DNA from: Halogeometricum sp. S3BR5-2
GTDB taxonomy: Archaea > Halobacteriota > Halobacteria > Halobacteriales > Haloferacaceae
NCBI RefSeq assembly: GCF_031624635.1
Contig: NZ_JAMQOQ010000002.1
Span: 744,001 to 808,000 of the forward strand
Direction: 5' to 3'
Length of the DNA: 64,000 nt
Below, piece after piece: positions 23,454 to 27,040 of the stretch; the first letter of the stretch is position 1; every line of letters starts with the position of its first letter. Under the pieces are notes generated by a model. That model saw nothing but the letters and a program-made list of their open reading frames with translations, searched no databases and was not told where the DNA came from. The position numbers were made by a program, and so were the translations under genes.

Positions 23454-23648
23454 CTACGCCGTCTGCGCCGCGCCGCCCTTCTTTCGCGTGATGTAGCCCG
23501 CGATGCGGTTTCGGACTTCCTTCGACTCGACGTTGGTCAGTTGGCTGACGCTCTCTTTGTTCGTATCGAAGTCGGCGTTGAACGCCTGCGGATACTTCTC
23601 CAGCAGCAGCTTTCCGAGCTGTTTGACGTACTTGGGTTTGATAGCCAT
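23454..23648 (-). CDS. rps17e: 30S ribosomal protein S17e
   Basis: The 64-residue protein is a textbook archaeal S17e: MAIKPKYVKQLGKLLLEKYP, then NKESVSQLTNVESKEVRNRIAGYITR and a short basic tail. It belongs to the small ribosomal subunit and is found in archaea and eukaryotes only. It is a single-gene unit with a TATA-like box 25-31 nt upstream. Its basic residues stand out against the acidic neighbours, as expected for an rRNA-binding protein. Confidence 0.97.
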   Translation of the reverse strand: MAIKPKYVKQLGKLLLEKYPQAFNADFDTNKESVSQLTNVESKEVRNRIAGYITRKKGGAAQTA

Positions 23649-23672
23649 GCCCGACGGTATCCACAGAGCGCA

Positions 23673-23761: not shown

Positions 23762-24376
23762 CTACGGCCGGTCCCGCCAGCCCGATACCGCGTCTATCGT
23801 CTCGAACGCCTCCTTCTCCGCCGGGCCGCCGCACCGTTCGACGGTGTCCGCGAAGTACTCGAGCCGAGAGAGCAGTTCGTCGGTGTCGTACGCCGGCACG
23901 TCGAGGCGCGACGCCGCGACGGTGGCGTCTATCACGGCGGCGAACCCGCGGTTGATGAGGGGAACCGTCTCGGAGACGACGCGCGACTCGGCGGGCCGGA
24001 GTTCCCACTGTTCCCAGCGCGTGCCGCCGCGTTCGCCGCCGTCGACGCGCCGGGCTTCCACTTCGACCCACGCGTGCGCGGCGTCGAGGACCGGGTCGTC
24101 CTCCTCGCGGACGGTCATGGCCGCCGAGACGAACTCGCGGGGGTCCGAGACGAACTGAACGACGCCGCCGCCGCGCCGGTGGAAGTTCCGCCGCGTCCGC
24201 GTGTTCCCCCACGTCGTCGCCGTCACCACGTCTCCCGGTTCCTCGGGGGCGCGCAGGCCGAGGGCGGCGACGTTCCAGCGGTCGTTCGGACCGAGCGTCG
24301 TCACCACCGACTCGGTGACGCCGCGGAGGGCGACGGGCCACCCGTCGGCCGCCCCCTCCGGTTCCGGACCGCTCAC
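23762..24376 (-). CDS. DUF447 family protein (flavin-reductase-like split barrel)
   Basis: The 204-residue product contains the DUF447 core: RGVTESVVTTLGPNDRWNVAALGL, WGNTRTRRNFHRRG, VQFVSDPREFVSAAMT and a C-terminal helical part with INRGFAAVIDATVAASRL. DUF447 proteins are predicted to adopt an FMN-binding split-barrel fold. The gene is last in a four-gene operon, its GTG start overlapping the upstream gene by 4 nt (GTGA). Biochemical role is unknown. From memory, homologues occur beside one-carbon cofactor genes in methylotrophs and methanogens, which suggests cofactor biosynthesis. Confidence 0.87.
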   Translation of the reverse strand: MSGPEPEGAADGWPVALRGVTESVVTTLGPNDRWNVAALGLRAPEEPGDVVTATTWGNTRTRRNFHRRGGGVVQFVSDPREFVSAAMTVREEDDPVLDAAHAWVEVEARRVDGGERGGTRWEQWELRPAESRVVSETVPLINRGFAAVIDATVAASRLDVPAYDTDELLSRLEYFADTVERCGGPAEKEAFETIDAVSGWRDRP

Positions 24377-25230
24377 ACCGACAACCCCCGTTCGAGGGCG
24401 ACGAACGCCGCCGCGCAGACGAGGTCGGCCGTCGTTCCGGGGTTGATACCCTCCGCGACGAACTCCTCGGCCAGTTCGGCCACTCTCCCCTCGTCGCCCC
24501 GGGCCTCGGCCGCCCGGCGGCGCACCTCGGCGGCCGTCTCGGGGCCGTGCTTCGTCCGCACGAGGGTGTCCCCCTCGTCGGCGAGGCGGTCGACGAACGC
24601 GCGCGCGATTCGGTCCGGCGCGGGGCCGTCGTCCGCGCGGATGGCCTCCGCCGTCTCGAACGTGCCGGCGAAGCCGTCCGTCCACTCCGCGGCGTTGCCG
24701 TCGCCCTCGCTGGCGGCCATCACCTCGGACAGGGTCAACCCTCGCTCGCGGAGCGTCGGTACCGCGTCGCTCCCGCGGCGGACGTCGAGGTCCGAGAGGT
24801 CCTCCGGCGGGTCGTCGACGGCCACGTCGACGTGCTCGAACGCCCGGTAGAAGTCCGCGGCGTCCGCGACGGTGGTCGACTCGACGATTTCGGTGACTCC
24901 GTCGGGCGAGAGGTTTCCCGCGGCCGCCGCGCGCACGAGGGGGACGAGGAGCAGCAGACAGCCGAACTGCGTGTTGCCGCCCTCCTGGTGGCGCATCCCG
25001 CGCACGGCGCGTTCGAAGGCGACGCCGACGGGGGCGCCCGCCTCGGCCCGGCGGAGGCCCTCGCCCGACCCCACGGCGCCCGCGAGGAAGTGTTCGAACC
25101 GGAGGTCCGAGAGGTCGCGCGCGCGGTCGACGTTGCCGGGTTTCGGCGTCCCGGCGACGTCCAGTAGGAGCGCGAGTTGGGCGTTCTCGGCGGGGGTGCG
25201 GGGACTCGGACGCTCGGACGCGCCGCTCAC
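24373..25230 (-). CDS. triphosphoribosyl-dephospho-CoA synthase-like protein (CitG/MdcB family)
   Basis: The 285-residue protein belongs to the CitG/MdcB family, whose bacterial members transfer the ribosyl-triphosphate of ATP onto dephospho-CoA to make the citrate or malonate lyase prosthetic group. Family marks are LLLDVAGTPKPGNVDR, FEHFLAGAVGSGEG, HQEGGNTQFGCLLLLVPL and EFVAEGINPGTTADL. No citrate or malonate lyase gene is present here, so the archaeal enzyme probably ribosylates another acceptor. It sits between a DUS-like gene and DUF447, overlapping both by 4 nt (GTGA and TCAC read on the plus strand). Confidence 0.87.
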   Translation of the reverse strand: MSGASERPSPRTPAENAQLALLLDVAGTPKPGNVDRARDLSDLRFEHFLAGAVGSGEGLRRAEAGAPVGVAFERAVRGMRHQEGGNTQFGCLLLLVPLVRAAAAGNLSPDGVTEIVESTTVADAADFYRAFEHVDVAVDDPPEDLSDLDVRRGSDAVPTLRERGLTLSEVMAASEGDGNAAEWTDGFAGTFETAEAIRADDGPAPDRIARAFVDRLADEGDTLVRTKHGPETAAEVRRRAAEARGDEGRVAELAEEFVAEGINPGTTADLVCAAAFVALERGLSV

Positions 25231-26036
25231 GGTCGGCCCTCCGAGGCGTCGGGGGCCGTCTTCGACCCCGACTCGCCCGCTCGCTCCCCGTCGAACCAGC
25301 CGTCGACCGCCCGCCGGACGCGACGGAGGACGCGCGGGTCGGTGCTCGGCCGGCCGACGCTCACCGCGTCCGCGCCGTGCGCGAGGTACTCGTGGACGCT
25401 CTCTCGGCCTCGCACCTCGTTGTTGGCGACGACGAACAGGGGGGTCTCGGCCACCTCGGCGACGACGTCCTCGGAGTCCATCGCGTCGACGTGTATCAGC
25501 GAGGCGCCCGCCTCGGCGAGTCGCGCCGCCGTCTCCGCGAGGTCGACGCCGTCGACTTCGGCGCGGACTTTCGCTCCGACCGTCGCCCCCTCGTCGGCGG
25601 CGGCGGCGACGTACTCGCACAGTCTGTCGGTGTCGCGCAGAAGCGTCTCGCCGCACCCGACGGCGCGGAGTTCGTCCTGCCGGCAGTGGGCGTTCACTTC
25701 GAGGACGGCGCCGCGGTCCGCGCAGAGGCGGGCGGCCTCGCGCACCGGGTCGACCGTCGCGCTTCGGACGTTGACGCCGACCCGTATCTCCGCGTCCGCG
25801 AGGGCGTCGAGTTCCCCGGTGACGAACGCGAGGGGGTCGTCGGGCAGGAACTCGTTGCGGTCGCGCGCGACGAGTTCCCGCGCCGCGTCCCTGCTCTCCT
25901 CGTCCAGACTGACACCGCCGAGGAACGCCATCCCGGCGTGAGAGGCGGCCGCCCGCGCCCACGCGGCGTCGCTCTCGCCGCTGAGGCTGGCGAGGGCGAG
26001 GCGCGGTTCGAAGTCGAAGTTCGCGTCCGAGGTCAT
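25227..26036 (-). CDS. DUS-like TIM-barrel flavoprotein
   Basis: The 269-residue product resembles archaeal dihydrouridine-synthase/DHODH-like FMN proteins: [16 protein letters not shown] at the start, [16 protein letters not shown], and [17 protein letters not shown] with Cys118 in the place of the Dus catalytic Cys (normally within NxGCP). Then [30 protein letters not shown] and [12 protein letters not shown] form the phosphate-binding end of the barrel. The changed motif and short length argue against a normal tRNA-modifying Dus; a cofactor-related reductase is possible. It overlaps cofD and the CitG-like gene by 4 nt each. Confidence 0.82.
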
Positions 26037-27040
26037 CGGGACGCCTCCGCCCCGACGTCCGCCAGCGCCGAGTCGACGGCGCGGGCGACGCGCGCGGCGT
26101 CCTCGGGGCCGTTCATCTCCGTGTCCGTCCTGACGACGGGTCGGTCCAACTCGGTGCCGTCCGCCGAGTCGAGGACGAACGCGTCGGCGAACGGGTAGGC
26201 GTCGGCGACGCCGCGGGTGGAGGGGTCGAGACCCACGCCGTCCATCAGTTTCGCCGCCGGCCCGGAGAACACGCGGTCCTCGACGAACGGCGAGACGGCG
26301 ACGACGGGCGTCGATTCGAGGGCGTTCCGGAAGGCGTCCATCGCCAGCATCGGCCCGAGGCTGGTGACGGGGTTCGACGGGCCGACGACGACGGGGTCGG
26401 CGAGGGCGTCGAGGACGGCCCCGGTGGGTTCGGCGTCGCCCGCCCCGCGGAACTCCACCTCCTCGACGGCGGGTTCGGCGCGGCGGTGGACCCAGTACGC
26501 CTGAAAGTGCATCGTCCCCTCGTCGGTGTGGACGACGGTGGCGACGGGGTCGTCCGACATCGGAAGTAACTCGATTTCGAGACCGAACGCGTCCGCGAGC
26601 GTCCGCGTCACCTCGGTGAGCGCGTCCCCCTCGTCGAGGAGGGACGTGCGGGTGACGTGGACCGCTCGGTCCCGGTCTCCGATTTCCATGAACTCGGCGA
26701 CGCCGGAGAAGCGGCGCCAGCGGGCGATGTCTCTCCCGGAGACCTGCGCCTCGTCGCGGAGGTAGCGCGGGCCGTCGTCGAGGCCGGCGGCGTCGGCGAG
26801 GCGGTGGAGTTCGTCGTCCGTCGCCGTCGTGTCGCCCTCGATGCCCCACCAGCGCTCGGTGTCGAGGACGCCGCCGCCGTGGAACAGGACGGTGTCGACG
26901 TCCGGGCAGACGAGGTGTCCCCCGAGTTCGACGTCGTCGCCGGTGTTGGCGACCACCGTCGTCTCCGCGGGGTCGAACACCTCGCTCGCGCCGTCGAGCA
27001 GTTTCGGGGTGCCCGTCCCCCCGGCGAGAAACGTGACCAT
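26033..27040 (-). CDS. cofD: 2-phospho-L-lactate transferase (coenzyme F420 synthesis)
   Basis: CofD joins a phospholactyl (or phosphoenolpyruvyl) group to the deazaflavin Fo, making F420-0. The 335-residue product starts [17 protein letters not shown], the glycine-rich loop of the family, followed by [19 protein letters not shown] and the end motifs [15 protein letters not shown] and [18 protein letters not shown]. The internal ATG at 27040 is chosen over an upstream one that adds ten residues. It opens a four-gene operon with 4-nt overlaps, so the downstream DUS-like, CitG-like and DUF447 proteins are likely made together with F420. Confidence 0.95.

Follow-up and report, generated by a model that had tools for sequence, protein, structure and literature searches.

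Two haloarchaeal genes behind cofD, CitG-like and DUF447, may serve the synthesis of a tetrahydromethanopterin-type cofactor

The closest described counterpart of the genes considered here is the synthesis of tetrahydromethanopterin (H4MPT) or dephospho-H4MPT in methanogens, methylotrophs and planctomycetes, where RFAP synthase, a CitG-like protein and a DUF447 protein likewise co-occur; in the bacteria, these genes sit with pABA, DHPS-like and mch genes. Methanopterin has an alpha-linked ribose on ribitol, its 5-phosphate becoming a diester, and RFAP must be opened and reduced to an aryl-deoxyribitol. Older chemical work on halobacteria is said to have reported folates, not methanopterin. In the published view, haloarchaea have no methanopterin-specific enzymes, and HVO_2628, a homologue of RFAP synthase, is unlikely to form RFAP (PMC8305020). 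The haloarchaeal genes depart from the H4MPT systems in that CitG-like and DUF447 stand behind cofD, the RFAP-synthase gene is unlinked to that operon and folate is the accepted carrier of these organisms. We propose that the CitG-like and DUF447 proteins are probably enzymes of tetrahydromethanopterin-type synthesis, and that most haloarchaea make such a carrier beside folate, to be used by Mer, their homologue of F420-dependent methylene-H4MPT reductase.

The window, a stretch of 64,000 nucleotides from Halogeometricum sp. S3BR5-2, contains the four genes listed in Table 1. The original prediction described them as an operon in which each gene overlaps the next by 4 nt, and the coordinates bear this out at all three junctions (ATGA, GTGA and GTGA). 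A check across the Halobacteria found no break-up of the operon in most relatives: in the loci that were read from families f1, f2, f3, f6, f7, f8 and f9, the genes follow one another as cofD-dus-citG-DUF447 on a single strand, and gene order and strand are conserved among haloarchaeal relatives far above chance expectation. The exact 4-nt overlaps are not general, and the spacing differs among relatives, reaching about 560 nt. In G021 (family f5), dus-citG-DUF447 is present and cofD does not adjoin it. The dus gene is sometimes elsewhere in family f4, as judged from match coordinates, the f4 loci not being among those read. A promoter and terminator scan gave no signal exceeding that of shuffled sequences. 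The short gene immediately 3' of DUF447 (window 23462-23649, minus strand) resembles ribosomal protein S17e, judged by eye.

Table 1. Positions in the window of the four genes of the operon.
Gene	Position	Strand	Remark	Family model
cofD	27040-26033	minus	operon gene 1	TIGR01819
DUS-like (TIM barrel with NAHCRQ motif)	26036-25227	minus		nearest is the MJ0144 family, TIGR00736
CitG-like	25230-24373	minus	GTG start	PF01874
DUF447	24376-23762	minus	GTG start	PF04289 + PF20766

The four genes had also been thought to form one pathway. This part of the prediction does not hold, and the operon as a whole is not a single pathway. CofD passes the TIGR01819 equivalog (374 bits, cut-off 257), and each of the 22 genomes tested has cofD, among them the three that are without CitG-like and DUF447. 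In those three, cofD and dus are still adjacent, with citG and DUF447 cleanly gone. CofD is a 2-phospho-L-lactate transferase that makes F420, and it stands outside the co-lost module. The DUS-like gene is present in 114 of the 116 Halobacteria, and in the two exceptions, G002 and G069 (loci L149 and L154), the cofD-citG-DUF447 operon is otherwise intact, so the gene is dispensable for the rest of the operon. Kept without the module and twice lost alone, the DUS-like protein was ruled out as a module member; it is separable from CitG-like and DUF447 and is left outside the proposed pathway.

The DUS-like protein scores 29 bits with Pfam Dus and 120 bits with its closest NCBIfam model, TIGR00736 of the MJ0144 family, which is below the cut-off of 219; the same model is the best match for all 16 haloarchaeal orthologues. 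It shares the TIM barrel and the cysteine of the GCP motif with the tRNA-dihydrouridine synthases and the MJ0144 family, but it has 269 aa where the matched DUS structures have 305-317, and HCR replaces GCP. The altered catalytic motif that had been read in it, NAHCRQ, is confirmed and invariant across the 16 orthologues. Its structural model (pLDDT 88) has tRNA-dihydrouridine synthases as top matches, followed closely by dihydropyrimidine and dihydroorotate dehydrogenases.

The retention of cofD without the module also counts against the modified flavin or deazaflavin that had been guessed, beside a pterin, as the product. A single route to such a compound from all four genes would agree with the conserved operon with cofD and with the FMN-binding fold of DUF447, but cofD and the DUS-like gene persist in the genomes without CitG-like and DUF447. 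The bacterial neighbours of DUF447 are RFAP synthase and pABA genes, no CofD relative being found in the fetched DUF447 stretches. We consider this route very improbable.

Of 116 Halobacteria genomes, 113 have CitG-like, DUF447, a member of the RFAP-synthase family and Mer, and the remaining three, G001, G007 and G018, have none of the four. G001 and G007 belong to one genus and G018 to another, whose six other sampled members retain everything; the co-loss represents at least two independent losses, and only two were seen. With random placement, a second gene would be missing from the same three of the 116 genomes once in 253,460 cases, and a conservative count of two losses in 46 genera gives 1 in 1,035 for each added gene, the tree being modelled in neither figure.

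Such a co-absence could simply reflect the shrinking of genomes in small anaerobes, with no functional link between the genes. At 2.1-2.4 Mb, the three genomes are indeed small, and losses are few, but G021, G093, G010 and G066 (1.9-2.5 Mb) keep the module, and the same families are joined in independent bacterial clusters. As a base-rate test, 14 conserved neighbourhood genes were searched for in 1.6 of the 2.09 Mb (77%) of G007. In this part, four of the 14 have no match, namely RFAP synthase, CitG-like, DUF447 and a BirA-like protein, whereas 10 of the 11 conserved genes that do not belong to the module were found. The sample is small, but the absence of the module from G007 is specific and not general decay, and we regard genome reduction as an improbable explanation.

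In bacteria, a single scan with a DUF447 alignment headed by Rhodopirellula yielded 80 loci, 77 of which have a clustered DUF447 reading frame. Among Planctomycetes, Acidobacteria and Gemmatimonadetes, the DUF447 gene stands directly before RFAP synthase; the RFAP-synthase family is present in 65 of the 77 loci, and in 64 of them it lies immediately downstream of DUF447 on the same strand. PabA is just upstream of DUF447 in 52 loci. PabB, an SDR gene and a DHPS-like gene (TIGR00284) turn up repeatedly nearby, and DUF447 often follows PabA/PabB and the DHPS-like gene. CitG-like is in the fetched stretch of seven loci, and in one acidobacterium it adjoins mch. In 30 of 30 bacterial genomes from this set, all chosen for having DUF447, there is a single CitG-like protein (its gene split over contigs in one case). 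The original guess of a cofactor pathway with a pterin link stands for CitG-like and DUF447, which travel with RFAP synthase and Mer in haloarchaea and with methanopterin genes in bacteria; it does not stand for cofD and the DUS-like gene.

With ATP as the donor, CitG attaches a triphosphoribosyl group to a ribose hydroxyl, with release of adenine and formation of an alpha-linkage. The protein in the window belongs to the same Pfam family (PF01874, 207 bits) and conserves KPGNV and NPGTTAD-type motifs, as do CitG and MdcB. This membership would allow it to be a true triphosphoribosyl-dephospho-CoA synthase for an enzyme of the citrate or malonate lyase type. However, it scores 15-18 bits with the CitG and MdcB equivalog models, far under their cut-offs of 272-282, and its context is one of methanopterin-type genes and not a lyase operon, which makes that function extremely improbable. 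We give about an even chance to its being an ATP-dependent alpha-(triphospho)ribosyl transferase in methanopterin-type synthesis. In genus g2, the CitG-like match is split into two to three pieces near residues 180-190 and 245-250, a pattern that suggests putative lineage-specific insertions.

The DUF447 protein scores above the cut-off with both of its domain models (DUF447_N, PF04289, 75 bits; DUF447_C, PF20766, 67 bits). The flavin-reductase-like fold that had been predicted for it is supported by its structural model (pLDDT 91), which matches the FMN-bound DUF447 crystal structures 2iml, 2nr4 and 2ptf and then general flavin reductases. It shares family and fold with the DUF447 proteins in the PDB (2iml, 2nr4, 2ptf and 3b5m), whose structures contain FMN, but identity is just 23-29% in structural alignments, and the PDB titles name no function for them. 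DUF447 proteins have been tied to the cannulae of Pyrodictiaceae (PMC13140500), which is a poor fit to an FMN enzyme encoded next to RFAP synthase. As an FMN protein whose gene adjoins that of RFAP synthase in bacteria, DUF447 is a natural candidate for the opening and reduction of RFAP, and we tentatively suggest that with FMN it is the reductase of the RFAP C-riboside. DUF447 relatives sought in viral contigs were not found.

The genome of the window encodes a beta-RFAP-synthase homologue that passes TIGR00144 (161 bits, cut-off 113.5). With the RFAP-synthase equivalog NF040726, the haloarchaeal protein reaches 170 bits against 328, and a planctomycete enzyme from a full cluster is also below, with 143. 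For Mer, matches to TIGR03555 with E values up to 1e-40 were taken; the best haloarchaeal score is 334 against a cut-off of 348.7, and none of the 116 genomes passes. On these profile scores, the putative Mer and RFAP synthase of haloarchaea both diverge from the family models. In MTH0830, R26 is important for pABA binding, and the D19N variant keeps partial activity (PMC6787355). The arginine matching R26 is kept in all of the haloarchaeal homologues in which the motif is fully shown, D19 is replaced by asparagine in 19 of 20, and bacterial homologues are often without both residues. Among the conserved genes around RFAP synthase in haloarchaea, none hinted at a pathway.

The replacement of D19 would suit a module that makes some other aryl-riboside cofactor or modifies folate, with Mer still requiring a carrier other than methanopterin. 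The co-loss pattern would be identical, and folate is the accepted carrier (PMC8305020). The presence of the same three families together in bacterial methanopterin clusters, however, speaks for ordinary intermediates, and we consider this alternative unlikely, though more probable than those discussed above.

The reactions of the methanopterin-type pathway that we propose, their order and the final product would be as follows. The unlinked RFAP-synthase homologue would form an aryl C-riboside 5-phosphate, which DUF447 with FMN would open and reduce to an aryl-deoxyribitol. The CitG-like protein would then move a (triphospho)ribosyl group from ATP onto a hydroxyl of the ribitol with inversion, and the alpha-riboside that characterises methanopterin would result; starting from the beta-configured ATP, a CitG-type step would obtain the alpha-linkage by this inversion and leave over an activated phosphate. 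In methanogens, the proposed ribosyl donor is reportedly PRPP, not ATP. From the co-loss we infer that the product serves Mer, and Mer would use F420 in its reduced form. That CofD makes the F420 that Mer uses would explain why cofD shares an operon with CitG-like and DUF447. Mch was considered as a user of the cofactor and ruled out: it is present in all of the 116 Halobacteria, including the three without the module. Its retention there counts against the pathway as proposed, as one methanopterin-type enzyme, at least, does not depend on the module.

A methanopterin-type carrier in haloarchaea would contradict the published view (PMC8305020); the evidence is genomic and is no proof of the contrary. 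It does put in doubt the premise of the original prediction that haloarchaea do not use such a cofactor, given the evidence from CitG-like, DUF447, RFAP synthase and Mer. In its widest form, in which most haloarchaea have both folate and this carrier and employ the latter in the methyl branch from Mer to methionine, with CitG-like and DUF447 filling two as yet unassigned steps of methanopterin synthesis in every organism that makes the cofactor, the proposal has, in our opinion, slightly less than an even chance. If it is true, the accepted replacement of methanopterin by folate in haloarchaea is wrong or incomplete, DUF447 and the CitG-like protein, whose annotation is unknown or doubtful, gain places in methanopterin synthesis, and the question becomes testable in the genetically tractable Haloferax volcanii. 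In the open literature, a scope outside which the subscription papers on Methylobacterium lie, no paper was found linking DUF447, this CitG family or triphosphoribosyl-dephospho-CoA to methanopterin; some of the assignment may have been published before.

Of the three module-less genomes, G001 and G007 have two MTHFR-family matches each, and one of those in G007 is a protein of 518 aa with a DUF5981 C-terminal domain. As judged from their domains, these two genomes carry a predicted acetogen-type folate reductase, of the kind with a DUF5981 C-terminus, in place of Mer. Such an enzyme likewise performs the methylene reduction step and stands where Mer is missing, but it is unrelated to Mer and folate-dependent, and it is present in only two of the three module-less genomes. 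Halodesulfurarchaeum formicicum, an anaerobic haloarchaeon of small size, has the whole folate pathway as well as the folate-type reductases HTSR_1746 and HTSR_1220 (PMC5437934); the positions of the two reductases in G007 resemble the order of these genes, and G007 may come from the same lineage. G018 is the sole genome of the 116 without a match to MetE-type methionine synthase. A simple reading is that the module is dispensable where folate-dependent reduction has replaced Mer or where the methyl branch has been lost. Other genomes with PF02219 have one match each, in most cases a short one (about profile positions 67-225). Such a short, partial MTHFR match lies in a protein of some 300 aa at G000:C4:378226-378684 and in 23 other genomes, about one fifth of the Halobacteria, all with Mer kept.
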